Below, one piece after another: positions 41,901 to 64,000 of a stretch of DNA of 64,000 bases. The stretch comes from Neopestalotiopsis rosae (Eukaryota; Ascomycota; Sordariomycetes; Amphisphaeriales; Sporocadaceae). Under the pieces are notes generated by a model. That model worked only from the letters and a program-made list of their open reading frames with translations. It had not been told where the DNA came from and did not search any database. The stretch is taken from positions 62,001 through 126,000 of the forward strand of contig JALGAS010000011.1 in the NCBI GenBank assembly GCA_023078685.1, given 5' to 3'. The translations under genes were made by a program, and so were the position numbers. The first letter of the stretch is position 1. Every line of letters starts with the position of its first letter.

Positions 41901-43254
41901 ATGTTAATCAAGCCATTCCTTTCACTTGGCCTCGGCATCGCCGCCGCGGCCAACTGCGTTGCATCGAATGTTGCGATAGCAACCCGCCTCGACCAGCTTC
42001 CGACTCTGAGCGCAGGTGCTAGTTGTGCTTGCGCAAGATTGAGTGCTACCTTTGGCACCTCTGTCTTGAACAGCAATTCAACCAATTATACTGTTGAAGC
42101 CGAAGACTTCTACGATATTCGCGCTGTTCTTGCTCCTCGATGCATCTTCCTTCCCAATGATGCCGCTCAGGTGGCCTCGGGCATGGCCATCATTGCTTCA
42201 TGCGGTGCACAGTTTGCCATTCGAGGTGGAGGGCATATGAATGTACGTGTGACATTGGTTCATATGTTAAACAATCATTGACAACTACCTCTTACTAGTT
42301 CCCCGGTGCCAATGATATCGACGGCGGCGTACTACTCGCCCTCAATAACCTCAAAGAAATTCACGTCAGCGCTGATAATAAGATGGTCGAGGTCGGGCCA
42401 GGCAATCAGTGGGTCGACGTTTACGCAGCTCTCGATGCCTACGATCTGTATTGCATCGGAGGGCGCATGAAGACCATTGGAGTACCCGGTCTGAGCCTGA
42501 TTGGTGGCTTCCACTACTTGACCAACAAGTACGGCTTTGCCATGGACAACGTTGTGAGCTACGACGTGGTTCTGGGTAACGGTAGCCAGGTAGTTGCCAA
42601 TGCTACGTCCAATCCCGATCTCTTTTGGGCGCTGAAGGGCGGTGCCAATAACTTTGGTGTCGTTACCAAGTTTGTGCTCAACACACTGCCAATTCCCCAG
42701 ATCAGCACCACCTTGAAAGTGTTCAATGAAACGTATGTTCGCGACTTCATTGATGCGACCGTCGACTTGACCAAGAACCAAGACCCCAGCATTGGTGCAG
42801 GATCCATCATCACGATATCGTACAACACCACGACCAAGACTGTCACGGCGGTTCTGCGCGATGTTCAGGAAGGCACCGAGTCGCCGCCCTCTAGCTTCCG
42901 AAAGTTCTCTGAGATCCCGTCAGCATTGACTCAAAACTCTGTGCAGAGACCTTTGGAGTTCCACGACCAACTGGACTCGCCATTCCAAATGTTTCGGTAT
43001 GTTTTGTCTTTTTCTTGTCATTTTCGCCTCGCGATATGATATGAATCCTAGCAATCAGCTACGCTAACGTCTTGGCACGAGTATTCAATTTGGCCACAAG
43101 ACAATGAAGCCAGACGCAGACCAGATCTATCGCATATATCAGGCATGGCGAGCTGCTGTCGAAGACATCAGCGACATTAAGGGTCTGATCCCAACTCTGG
43201 TCTTAAACACCATGGCAGCTAGTGCCATAAGCGTGGCAAAGAACAACGGCATCG

Positions 43255-51619: not shown

Positions 51620-51775
51620 TATTATATAACGTAATATAACCCACCGCAAATCACCTGCTTAAGTATATTAAATAGCTCTTCAGCGCTTCTCTTTTATAGC
51701 TCTACAAAATCAACTCAATCTACTTTCGTTGCGTTTACGATCACTTATTCCCCTTCGTTATCGGCTCAGGTGAGA
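51620..51775 (+). repeat. 3' LTR of the outer Copia element
   Basis: 156 bp, TATTATATAACG to GGTGAGA, followed by the GAAAT duplication at 51776-51780. Confidence 0.92.
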
Positions 51776-52232
51776 GAAATGTGTGGGGTCTAGACGACAA
51801 GGAGCCTTTGATCAGTAAGTACCAGCATATCAAGCCGCTCGTTGCGCTGTTGCTAACACAAGTTCCAGTTTGGCAAACGTCTACTGGATGGGATGATGCG
51901 GCCAGTGACTTGCGGGTCACAAATTTTGCCCGCGGAGTGCTGGACGAGCTTCATGCGGAGAACCAGGCCAAAGGTCTTGCATCGGAGTTTCTTTACATGG
52001 GGGACGCGGCGGAGTTCCAAGATCCTTTCCTTAGGTTTCCAGCAGAAAACGTCCAGAAGATGAAGGACGTGAGAAATGCGTACGATCCTCTGGACGTGTT
52101 CACGAGACAGAACTGGGGCGGGTTCAAGCTCCCTCGGGCATGAGTAGTTGCGTCACGTTCCATGTAGAGGTTCAGAAGCTGAGGCATCAAAACGTTTGCT
52201 CATTTCTTTGTGTCTTTGGTGATGTATTTACA

Positions 52233-55835: not shown

Positions 55836-56747
55836 ATGACTTTGCCCAAGGAAGAATACTTTGCGGACGACCAATCAACGGACACGCTGCTGTTCGATGA
55901 AACAGATCCAAAAGCAAGATGGTCCTTTGGTCATGGTGAAAAGAATTGGAGATTCTGGGATTGGAAGACCAAGAGCCGAAAGTATGAAGGTCTCGCCGCG
56001 CCCTCTTCCAATGCCACCGGCAGCACAATGGGAATCTCTCGGTCTAGGAAATCATTCATTCTGTCAGTTGTAGCCATTATTCTCCTGGTAGGCTATGTGC
56101 TTGCCACTGCTCCGCTGGCCATTCAGACACTGCTCGCACAGCGCAGGTACACCTGCGGAAACAGTCTCGAGGAGGCCAAAGCTCGCGGTTGTACTTTTGA
56201 TCCCATGACGTAGGTTTTTTCCCAAAATAACCAGAATCTGAAACTTGTGCTTACTCTATTTCATGTCCATAGTGTCCAGTGGCTTCCAAAGCAGTGCTCT
56301 CGCGCCGGCGTAGATGAATTCCTTAGCGCACATGGCACGCACACGGATTTCAGCACTAGGCCCGCCGGAGCCGCGGCGGCGGCGGTGATGAAAAGCAGAC
56401 GTGGTGAGCCCGATGGATCAACGCCATATCCGGATCAGAATGCCACGGAGCGAGTCTGGCGCTACTACCGCGACGAGGCGCAGACGCAAGAGTACGTCAA
56501 CGGCCTGATCGACGCGCCGATCGGGCACTACCAATACTACACCACCCGCGGCGAGCACCTGGCCCACTGCGCCTACATCTTGGTGCGCGGAGCCGAGGCG
56601 CGCGCAGCCGGACATCGGCTGGACAAGCTCAGCTCCGAGCTAGAGCATACAAGGCACTGCGCATTGTTTCTCTTTGAGTATGCGAGGCACGCGCCGCATT
56701 TCGAAACTGTCAACACGCCCGGAGATGTGATGCTAGGAGAGTGTTAG
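55836..56747 (+). CDS. UstYa-related membrane protein (divergent DUF3328-like)
   Basis: Exons 55836-56209 and 56273-56747 (63-nt intron) give 849 nt (282 aa). A cytosolic N-terminus with a WRFWDWKTKSRKYEG segment is followed by one membrane helix at about residues 72-95 (FILSVVAIILLVGYVLATAPL). Outside lies CGNSLEEAKARGCTFDPMT then WLPKQCS, the signature of a fungal family related to UstYa. Two His-Cys motifs are seen: EHLAHC (HLAHC) and HTRHC, arranged like the paired HxxHC of DUF3328 proteins but closer together. UstYa-type proteins catalyse oxidative macrocyclisation in fungal RiPP pathways; whether this divergent group does so is unproven. It is 3.7 kb from the repeat precursor, with a glycosidase between them. 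Confidence 0.75.
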
Positions 56748-60462: not shown

Positions 60463-61223
60463 TTACTCGCTGTCGACAGTGGTGGTCTGATGATGATTAG
60501 TGAGTGAGCCGAATGAATGTGCCGGTGATACGGTAAACTTACAAACATGCCCTTCAAGTCCTCGGCACGTGCCTCAACATCGTGGGTTGTAGTTAACATC
60601 CCCTTGAGGTCCTCTGCACGGGCCTCGACGGGAGCGCCGTCGTGCGAGGTAGTAAACATGCCCTTGAGATCCTCTGCGCGCTTAGCAGGCGCAGAGTCGT
60701 GGGTTGTAGTAAACATTCCCTTCAAATCCTCAGCACGTGCCTCAACGTCGTGAGTCGTGGTGAACATGCCCTTTAGATCCTCGGCACGAGCCTCGATGTC
60801 CTGGGAGGTAGTGAACATTCCCTTCAAGTCCTCGGCACGCTTGGCAGGTGCAACATCGTGTGTTGTGGTGAACATGCCCTTGAGGTCCTCTGCACGTGCT
60901 TCAACATCATGCGAAGTAGTAAACATTCCCTTGAGATCCTCTTCACGTGCCTCGACGTCATGAGAAGTAGTAAACATTCCCTTAAGATCCTCAGCACGGG
61001 CTTCGACATCGTGGGAAGTGGTGAACATTCCCTTGAGATCTTCGGCACGCGCCTCAACGTCATGAGTAGTCGAGAACATGCCCTTCAAATCCTCCGCGCG
61101 AGCCTTGACTGGAGCAGCATCTTGAGAGGTAGAGAACATTCCCTTGAGGTCCTCGATGGGAGCTGCAAGGCCAGATCCGCCGAAGAGGGCAATGGCAATG
61201 ATTGTGGCGCGCATGGTGTGCAT
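60463..61223 (-). CDS. Secreted multi-repeat peptide precursor, putative RiPP (dikaritin-type) precursor
   Basis: Exon 1 (61223-60543) and a 24-nt exon 2 (60486-60463), separated by a 56-nt intron, give 705 nt (234 aa). A signal peptide (MRATIIAIALFGGSGLAAP; start 61223 or the ATG at 61214) is followed by 12 repeats of about 17 residues (51 nt). The core EDLKGMF is identical in 11 units and reads DLKGML in unit 11. The following T-T/S-H/Q-D and VEAR parts vary slightly. Each repeat ends in Arg, either A-R (most) or K-R (units 6 and 9), as expected for Kex2-like or related processing. Intron 1 cuts inside the last unit, after GMF, and exon 2 completes it as TTTVDSE. This architecture (signal, tandem cores, basic cleavage sites, next to a DUF3328 gene) is that of ustiloxin/phomopsin/asperipin-type precursors. 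Alternatively it is a repetitive secreted wall protein or pheromone-like peptide. Confidence 0.86.
60543..61160 (-). repeat. Tandem 51-bp coding repeat (12 units)
   Basis: Units of 51 nt, extended to 57, 60 or 63 nt where AP residues are inserted, encode the precursor repeats. Third-position differences between units show they are not brand-new copies, while the core residues are held constant. Confidence 0.9.
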
Positions 61224-62145
61224 TTTGCGATTGTAGGTTGGTGAGGAGGTGTGAGTGAGAGACGCTGGTAAAAGTGGATGAAGTGAGGATGCAAGATGCT
61301 AGAGCGGAGAACTTGTTGATGATCTGTTGTGAGACTGTAGTGCTGTGGTGATGAAATATTGGCATGATTCGGGGAAAGAAGCTCCTTTAAGTATATTGTT
61401 CACTGACTATGTGGGAATGTCAGTTGAAACTGACTTAGGTTGATCAGATGCTAGCCATGTTGCATCTTCCAGTTCCTTGCACAAACTCAATCACCCTACT
61501 CAGGTGCCCAATAACCGCGAGCACGATAGAGAAAGGTCCTATCCGCTGTGCCGTTACCAGTGCTGGCGGCGCAGCCAAACAATGCGATGAACGCGTCACG
61601 CGAGCGCGAGGCATACAGACTCTTGGGATGTCTCGTCAATAGCAGCATCACCGCGGCTGCCATGAACGGGAGACAGAGTCCCGGACATCAATGTCCTCTG
61701 GACCCACAGCGGCCCGATGTCACCAGCAAGAGGTGAGTAATACTATGCACGTATAGACGGTCGCCAATGGCAAATGAAGGGCGGCGCGCTGGTCAGCGGG
61801 GTTAGGGTATTATGCGGGGAACACGGAATGGGAAGCGGGGCATGAAATACGCCTATGACAGAGAGCGCCGCCGCGCCGCCCCCCACATTGAATTGGCTGC
61901 ATGCTGCACTATGATCCCAGTAGTTAGTTGGCCTTGTCAGCTTTGTGGTTAACGTCTAGCCGAGGACAATACAACTCGCAAAAGTCTGGCAGTGTGTGAT
62001 CTCAAAATGTCGATTACTTTCTTCTGAGTCCTAAACTCGCATTCTCACTTACAGCTCAAATTTTCTCCTGTCACTTTTCAATGACCTTATAACATTTCTC
62101 CATTTCTAACTCCCCAGAGTAGGTGAACTCGAAACAGTTGGCAAG
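61224..62145. promoter_or_regulatory. Divergent intergenic region between precursor and UstYa/UstYb genes
   Basis: About 920 bp separate the two start codons, which point away from each other. It probably holds both promoters. A pyrimidine-rich stretch lies just before the plus-strand ATG. No gene was recognised inside. Confidence 0.45.
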
Positions 62146-63048
62146 ATGTTCGCAAGCTATTTGTTCAGCGAAAAACATCGGTATGCTCCTCTGCCTTTGG
62201 AAAACAAGACAGATTTGCCAGCCAGCAAGCCAAATCAACCCAATCGACGACGCACTTTTATCCAAGCTTTAATCGTCTTGGAGATAATTCATGTACTCAT
62301 CGTCCTAATTGCGTACGCAGGCGGGCGCATTTTTGAGCATGCTCATACACAACATGAGTTGGATACTTGTTCGTGTGTCCTAGAATATGTGTCCTCAGGC
62401 CGCTAAGAATACCATTTAGATTTTGACCTCTTTCATTATAACACTGTCAATTCATTTTACGGCGAATGGTCCCTGATGAATCGGACTGCCGAGTCCGATG
62501 CTCTTTTTGAGCGAATTCAAATGAGTGAGTAGATTCAATATCGCCATTTTTGAACCAGAATACGCAGCTGAGACTCGTGCGTTTTTACTTCTCGCCTAGC
62601 GGACGGCATTGTGGCTATTGATACCGACTGGGCACTTGTTCATGGCTATTCGCCTTCAGTGCAGCATCCTGAGGATGCATCCAAAAGCATTTACCAAATA
62701 GATATGTTCCATTCCATGCATTGTATCGTAAGTTTTCATTTCTCTGCTTGTTGCATGCATCATGTTCACCAAAGAAAACAGTACCGACTCCGCAACAAGC
62801 TGACGTCGCGCGCGCCCCTGGAAGAATGGCCACGCGACGATGAACACACACTACACTGCCTGGACTATATGAGAGAGCAGCTATTGTGCAACTCTGACCT
62901 CACGCTGGAGGGGACTGACGATTTGCTGCACTTTAACAAAAACAGCGGCCACGTTTGCCGCAGTAGCGATGCGATTACAGCGTGGGCCGTGGCTCACCAC
63001 TGGAATGACCACCGGCAGTTCCTCAAGGACACCCAGAACTATGAGTAG
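62146..63048 (+). CDS. UstYa/UstYb-like oxidase (DUF3328), RiPP cyclisation family
   Basis: The best model has exons 62146-62368, 62420-62524, 62600-62727 and 62782-63048 (723 nt, 240 aa, in phase). The first intron (51 nt, donor GTTCGT, branch-like GCTAAG, acceptor TTTAG) is the least certain; a 45-nt alternative donor also fits, and without it an in-frame TAA would end the protein early. A cytosolic N-terminus precedes one membrane helix (ALIVLEIIHVLIVLIAYAGG). The family signature is complete: FHSMHC and, after 30-odd residues, EHTLHCLDYMREQLLC, the paired HxxHC motifs considered the active site of UstYa/UstYb. Splicing joins MHCI to YRLRN exactly at the first motif. Family knowledge: these enzymes form ether or C-C cross-links in core peptides of dikaritins. 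It is divergent to the repeat precursor, which supports a common pathway. Confidence 0.85.
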
Positions 63049-64000
63049 TTACAAAATCATCGTTGTGGCGATCAGGGGGCCTAGGCATTGTATTTACACA
63101 TCAGCTTTCACCAAAAATTTGGATAGACCTGAACATGATTAATTCTCGAAGAGGGCGCTATTCACAGAGAGCTTTCGCGCTAAAGTCATCCAAAGTCAAA
63201 ATCTTTCGTGTTCTGTTGAAGTATATAATTCATGTTTCAGAAGTTCTCTCAAAACTGTAATCGTTTTGAATAATCTTATGTACTGGTCTCGTTCATCGCA
63301 ATGTCTATGCCACGCTCCTGACAATGCCAGTCAGAATGAGCGGCGCACCTCGCCTACGGCCTTCCGCTGTCCCAATTCGCACCATGAACACTCTTGAAGA
63401 GGAGTCAGAATAGGCACATTAGTTATTGTCAATTCCAGCCAATCACGCTCGTTATCGCGGAGTTTGGTTGCGCGGCGCTGATGTTAACCCCATGCCGGTT
63501 TGGGAAAGGGCTGACTTCCCATCAATGGGCGCCGCCGTATCGCGGGTCTTGTGGAAGTTCACCTGGATATTATACGATACCTTGTGCACAACAACGGAAG
63601 CCGAAGTCGCATATTATCTGAAGCCCTCGGCGTCTCAATCTAGCTGCTTCAACTATCCATCGACCTTGTAACTATCATTTTGGTGATGGATCTCGATGGG
63701 AATGGTACGCACGGTCTTGACGATCTCTGGGGTCAGGATGAAGAAAAGTTCGATATCCCGGATATGCCTTCACTGCCTCCGATGAGGAGCACTGGATTTC
63801 TTTTACTTCTCACGTCCGGTCTTGCTGGGCAAGTCCACCTATTCTAACACTCTGGCGTCTGTTCGATAGACATACTGACTATGCGCCAAAGCACAGATTG
63901 CAATGCGTCTTCGCTTTAGTCTTTTCAAATGGATCAGTAGGTCAGAATCCCGAGCCGAGTATGTTATTAGCTTGTGCAGCTCCTCTGACATTGATCAAAG
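63049..64000. other. Right window edge without a recognised gene
   Basis: An 81-codon frame at 63426-63671 (with PVWERADFPSMGAAVSRVLW) has coding-like composition but no family I can name. It could belong to a gene running off the edge, for example another member of the peptide locus. Confidence 0.35.

Follow-up and report, generated by a model that had tools for sequence, protein, structure and literature searches.

KEP1 and its divergent UstYa neighbor

We analyzed a 64,000-nucleotide stretch of DNA (the window; C3:62001-126000 of a source genome of 53.8 Mb in 17 contigs) and the genes that follow it on contig C3, using KEP1 and KEP2 as working labels for two repeat precursors. As listed in Table 1, KEP1 and UstYa1 are encoded divergently, with 922 bp between their start codons. 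The earlier note on this DNA had placed a repeat precursor and a UstYa-type gene, divergent and 0.9 kb apart, at 60463..63048, and this interval fits exactly the spliced KEP1 (61223-60543 and 60486-60463 with the stop) together with UstYa1 (62146-63048). The 12 near-identical units that it described were also found, the last of them completed across an inferred 56-bp intron.

Table 1. Genes and features of the locus, as window positions or, where prefixed C3, contig positions; genes past the window were pieced together from exons by eye for the scan
Feature	Position	Strand	Remarks
KEP1, whole gene	60463..61223	-	stop included; 234 aa; 12 units after hydrophobic N-terminus
KEP1 exon 1	60543..61223	-	hydrophobic N-terminus (putative signal peptide, by eye), units 1-11, first half of unit 12
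KEP1 intron	60487..60542	-	56 bp, GTAAGT...CACTAAT...CAG; splicing inferred from sequence
KEP1 exon 2	60463..60486	-	TTTVDSE and stop; completes unit 12
Divergent intergenic region KEP1/UstYa1	61224..62145	.	922 bp; putative promoter region
UstYa1	62146..63048	+	UstYa/DUF3328 family, 240 aa; PF11807, HSMHC and HTLHC, one hydrophobic segment by eye
UstYa1 exons	62146-62368, 62420-62524, 62600-62727, 62782-63048	+	by eye
Second HxxHC protein	55836..56747	+	hydrophobic segment, two HxxHC motifs; UstYa-like by motif only
MFS-like transporter	63686..64000, on to C3:127486 (C3 125.7-127.5 kb)	+	start by eye; MFS_1 24.1 bits, below 33.4 cut-off
Arginase family	C3 127.8-128.7 kb	-	82 bits
P450	C3 129.6-131.3 kb	-	150 bits
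Fungal rhodopsin-type 7TM protein	C3 131.8-133.2 kb	+	100 bits
UstYa2	C3 133.9-134.7 kb	-	88 bits
KEP2	C3:135533-135842 (L011:2533-2842)	+	84 aa, repeat precursor
UstYa3	C3 136.2-137.3 kb	-	72 bits
UstYa4	C3 138.9-139.9 kb	+	93 bits, first part
MFS	C3 140.4-142.0 kb	-	105 bits

The KEP1 protein starts, ahead of its 12 units, with MHTMRATIIAIALFGGSGLAA, and hydropathy is 2.12 over residues 8-19, the putative signal peptide being judged from hydropathy alone. The repeat has a 159-bp period (Tandem Repeats Finder, score 528). The units read [A/E]EDLKGMFTT[S/T]HD (n = 12) and, with the spacer, [A/E]EDLKGMFTT[S/T]HDVEA(R). Within the 12-position core, E1, D2, L3, K4, G5, M6, T9, and D12 are invariant in all 12 units, F7 is present in 11, T8 in 10 (the other two having Ser), and H11 in nine, and position 10 is evenly divided between Ser (six) and Thr (six). 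The 234 residues hold no Tyr, Trp, or Cys, and Arg is absent from inside the cores of both KEP1 and KEP2.

Over the 12 core codons, pS is 0.786 and pN 0.071 (66 unit pairs; pN/pS 0.090), and for the spacer codons pN/pS is 0.111, as calculated from 21 pairs of the seven standard 17-codon units and omitting the five units of other length. The low pN/pS between units indicates that the peptide itself is conserved and under selection, and the excess of pS over pN indicates that the units are old copies kept alike in protein and not recent duplicates. A pN/pS of 0.09, together with the open frames and consensus-like splice sites of both genes, also argues against KEP1 and UstYa1 being a decayed or non-functional remnant, which we hold to be extremely unlikely even though an AT-rich block (32-39% GC) about 8 kb off seems, by eye, to split a neighboring oxidase gene.

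A homology search of the precursor, as the earlier note had proposed, returned no KEP1 homologue. In a word-based search of 5.8 billion proteins, neither the full protein (7994 best word-sharing candidates scored) nor a 111-residue piece of it (2451 candidates) had a homologue at E up to 10; candidates were proteins of similar length with common 5-residue words only, and this result is informative, as fungal proteins are present in that database. When the source genome itself was searched with KEP1 at E up to 1, only KEP1 was matched, and NCBIfam gave no match above cut-off for KEP1 or for the arginase-family protein. The Pfam model DUF5832 scored 27.6 bits against a cut-off of 26.7 on the whole of KEP1, with no single stretch above the cut-off; we rejected this identity and took the marginal score as an effect of the repeats.

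The identity of UstYa1 is clear: PF11807 matches the open frame at 62611-63048 with 51.6 bits (curated cut-off, 25), and an alignment of seven UstYa proteins (UstYa1-3 and those of loci L001, L003, L004, and L005, leaving out UstYa4 and those of L002, L006, L007, and L008) contains nine invariant columns (H, H, C, R, H, H, C, C, C), all of which are present in UstYa1. The paired HxxHC motifs that had been read from this gene, HSMHC and HTLHC, stand at invariant columns. Its best paralogue is at C11:5163993 (46% identity across the last exon). The earlier note had spoken of two UstYa-type proteins; this description held for UstYa1 and not for the protein at 55836-56747, which had no match to PF11807 or any other Pfam model at E up to 1 and aligned only weakly to the UstYa profile (hhalign probability 3.4%, E 0.013). 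Weak relatives of the latter protein (E 4e-5 to 9.5e-4) occur at four other loci, two of which (C12:2362670 and C12:4753001) are within UstYa loci, so this family may belong with UstYa loci despite its mismatch to the UstYa model.

The surrounding locus and UstYa loci elsewhere

The locus continues past the window end: UstYa1-4 and KEP2 fall within 17 kb, together with a P450, an arginase-family gene, and a pair of MFS-type transporters. KEP2 is a textbook Kex2-type precursor 12 kb from KEP1, between UstYa2 and UstYa3, with a hydrophobic N-terminus and three 14-residue units of sequence [H/N]EEAVDGTQIAEGW, each preceded by KR. UstYa2 had no PDB relative below E 0.48. No tyrosinase was matched on contig C3, and the at least 63 tyrosinase matches of the genome are all elsewhere. 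On the far side of KEP1, the frames at window positions 42299-43039 and 51700-52143 (plus strand) appear by eye to be two parts of one FAD-linked oxidase frame, about 8.6 kb apart; the 32-39% GC block in this gap (44-52 kb of the window) is probably a degraded mobile-element insert.

The genome as a whole contains 78 UstYa exon matches, corresponding to about 54 genes at 28 loci, and about 0.2% of it lies within 1 kb, and 1.3% within 10 kb, of a UstYa match. Of the eight further loci with paralogues of the transporter, four are less than 10 kb and five less than 25 kb from UstYa matches (post hoc binomial tails, 1.7e-6 and 9.4e-7), although a general tendency of metabolic genes to cluster could play a part. 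The P450 gives no support of this kind: its ten best paralogues elsewhere in the genome all lie more than 10 kb from any UstYa match (the nearest at 13 kb). Further, nine of the 27 other UstYa loci were at least partly covered (seven through L001-L008, plus C16:1163 and C16:3245), and at two of these, repeat precursors with KR sites were detected within about 1.5 kb of UstYa, in a scan that would miss intron-split or more distant precursors. The first (L001:3294-3482, plus strand, near UstYa C14:3876973) is a fragment, truncated where the locus ends, and has Tyr-containing DEDAIQEY[S/N]KR units; the second (L007:203-637, minus strand, near UstYa C10:5907567) has Trp-rich RWAWTKWEDAADE units and KR sites.

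At 2.8 kb from UstYa1 stands the arginase-family gene. Among the matches listed for its product (120 of 309), Fusarium relatives from many species reach 73% identity and Pestalotiopsis relatives, the best named ones, 76-83%, with one further sequence at 98%, which makes a fungus of the Pestalotiopsis group the probable host; a GNC motif is found in 93 of these best 120 by pattern match, with 25 outside the pattern. Among the loci fetched from the same genome, C1:6496790 is the only other one with at least 30% identity over most of the length (44%), and its distance to a UstYa match is 18.6 kb. Of seven other arginase-family loci, one has a UstYa match inside 10 kb (binomial tail, 0.085) and two have one inside 25 kb (0.015), a post hoc count, and we treat this proximity as a weak lead only. 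No paper naming both UstYa and arginase was found among the seven sharing at least three related terms; one of these, a lanthipeptide engineering review, names DUF3328 and arginase (PMC10373908). We also note that an arginase-family gene at C2:1102091-1103023 has, 8 kb away, a weak relative of the second HxxHC protein (C2:1110790-1111035), and this pair, with C1:6496790 and C11:3146610, hints at recurring arginase/HxxHC neighborhoods.

Proposed cleavage and modification of KEP1

Nine of the 11 junctions between KEP1 units have a single Arg (eight EAR and one KAR) and two have KR. The final unit ends VDSE-stop, and the Arg-ending processing site that had been ascribed to every unit is thus present in 11 of 12. 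The junction Arg is kept at all 11 positions with the use of two codons, and the residue ahead of it is Ala at nine, encoded by four different codons, or Lys at two. The absence of a classical Kex2 site from nine junctions is what might be expected if KEP1 were left uncut and served as a structural repeat protein in the cell wall or at the surface; however, the retention of Arg, and of Ala ahead of it, through several codons, the lack of Cys or Tyr for wall cross-links, and the UstYa neighbor all speak against such a role, which we regard as very unlikely.

We consider it probable that KEP1 is a precursor of secreted peptides whose units are cut after the junction Arg and tailored by UstYa1, i.e. 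that this is a UstYa-dependent (dikaritin-type) locus. KEP1 would enter the endoplasmic reticulum by its hydrophobic N-terminus and be cut after the junction Arg in the late secretory pathway; Kex2 would act on both KR sites, and the single-Arg sites would be cut either by Kex2 less efficiently or by a yapsin-like protease. The freed units would then be oxidized by membrane-bound UstYa1, possibly also by UstYa2-4 and the P450, and exported, and KEP2, flanked by UstYa2 and UstYa3, would give a second peptide from the same or an adjoining locus. This reading is favored by the selection on the repeated peptide, the retained junction Arg, the gathering of four UstYa genes with a P450, transporters, and KEP2, the presence in UstYa1 of every UstYa-invariant column, the transporter paralogues near UstYa matches at half of their other loci, and the precursors at L001 and L007; in the survey text of PMC7329392, 22% of KEPs have DUF3328 neighbors, with a maximum at the adjacent position. 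Set against it are the scarcity of dibasic sites in KEP1, the lack of Tyr and of a tyrosinase match on the contig, KEP2 as the better Kex2 substrate, the null result of the KEP1 homologue searches given above, UstYa genes with no detected precursor at seven of the nine other loci in view, and the distance of the P450 paralogues from UstYa genes.

Cleavage is the weak step of the proposal. According to PMC6339444, fungal Kex2 sites are generally KR or RR. Cutting at the dibasic sites of KEP1 would leave three pieces, one of 127 residues with the signal counted in, and two of 51 and 52. KEP1 is the odd one out, since KEP2 and the L001 and L007 precursors, all from the same genome, have KR. A published KEP rule, as we read it from the text of PMC7329392 and not from the authors' code, asks for at least three tandem repeats of at least 8 residues between KR, KK, RK, or RR, with no repeat over 100 residues; KEP2 passes this rule and KEP1 fails it. 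In favor of cleavage, selection has kept the junction Arg, and KEPs expressed in Pichia are described in PMC9769878 as giving several products apparently cut after a single Arg. If the single-Arg junctions are truly cut, surveys demanding dibasic sites undercount such precursors.

We infer modification of KEP1 from its UstYa neighbor. As the core is without Tyr, Trp, and Cys, the likely reactions would be hydroxylation, desaturation, or ring formation via Phe, His, Lys, or Met; the lack of Tyr in KEP1 and of a tyrosinase match on the contig excludes the tyrosine ether of ustiloxin for this core. UstYa homologues also desaturate residues, as in phomopsin, according to a 2022 review. Tyr is reported in 65.6% of the repeats of KEPs beside DUF3328 genes (PMC7329392), and about a third of such repeats are therefore Tyr-free, so a Tyr-free core is no argument against UstYa action. 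Such a core beside UstYa genes would test UstYa action without an available phenol. The computed [M+2H]2+ of the KEP1 unit AEDLKGMFTTSHDVEA is 875.9012 (linear), 874.8934 (minus 2 H), or 953.9518 (linear with C-terminal Arg), and that of the KEP2 unit NEEAVDGTQIAEGW is 759.8390 (linear) or 758.8311 (minus 2 H).

KEP2 is the better Kex2 substrate, and the UstYa enzymes encoded here could act on it exclusively. KEP1 would then give linear, unmodified secreted peptides with a signaling or surface role, and its adjacency to UstYa1 would be due to chance or shared history. The canonical sites of KEP2 and its position between UstYa2 and UstYa3, the lack of Tyr in KEP1 and its two dibasic sites, and the description in PMC9769878 of many KEP peptides as linear or minimally modified are all consistent with this. 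However, UstYa1 is divergent from KEP1 at 922 bp and 10.5 kb from KEP2, and only about 0.2% of the genome is as close as 1 kb to a UstYa match; we consider this explanation less likely than the preferred one. The preferred reading, of KEP1 units tailored by UstYa1, can also be extended: the UstYa locus would have twin precursors, KEP1 would be cut mainly at single Arg, its Tyr-free core would be oxidized by a non-phenolic UstYa chemistry missed by dibasic-site surveys, and the arginase-family protein would act on arginine that is released from the peptides or stays attached to them; we think this extended version distinctly unlikely.

Relation to known peptide pathways

The arginase-family gene at the KEP1/UstYa1 locus recalls the peptide arginases of the OspR type described in PMC10028609. 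Unlike these, the locus protein is closest in the PDB to ordinary arginases and has Cys in place of the metal-binding His of GGDHS, and the cores are without Arg; with the Fusarium relatives and no signal sequence evident by eye, we put down a peptide arginase role as unlikely.

As in the KEPs described in PMC7329392 and PMC6339444, the N-terminus of KEP1 is hydrophobic and its near-identical units stand in tandem and end in basic residues, but KEP1 differs in having only two dibasic sites, whereas KEP2 in the same locus conforms. In common with dikaritins of the ustiloxin, phomopsin, and asperipin-2a type, the locus has a repeat precursor whose N-terminus is hydrophobic, next to UstYa/DUF3328 genes and with a P450 and transporters near. 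The earlier note had seen exactly the dikaritin pairing here. The repeat precursor and its UstYa gene bear this out, as do the three further UstYa genes, P450, transporters, and KEP2; the exactness does not, as the core lacks Tyr, no tyrosinase is matched on the contig, and most junctions are single-Arg. The locus thus differs from the ustiloxin/phomopsin subtype, which has a core Tyr and a tyrosinase gene, and further in holding two precursors in one stretch. The victorin core is not known to contain Tyr. The victorin pathway is listed as a dikaritin in the 2022 review. An adjacent UstYa homologue is present (UstYa1 at 922 bp, with UstYa2-4 within 17 kb), but the dibasic Kex2 sites that separate the cores by the definition in PMC9769878 are found at two of 11 junctions; on this account we do not claim strict membership for this candidate locus. 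Few dikaritin products are known (five, according to the 2022 review), although 1758 KEPs with DUF3328 neighbors were counted in 2020 (PMC7329392). Overall, the KEP1 locus appears to work like a dikaritin locus and looks new and uncharacterized within a well-known class, with single-Arg junctions as its unusual trait; it is a sound and testable case, and one of very many.
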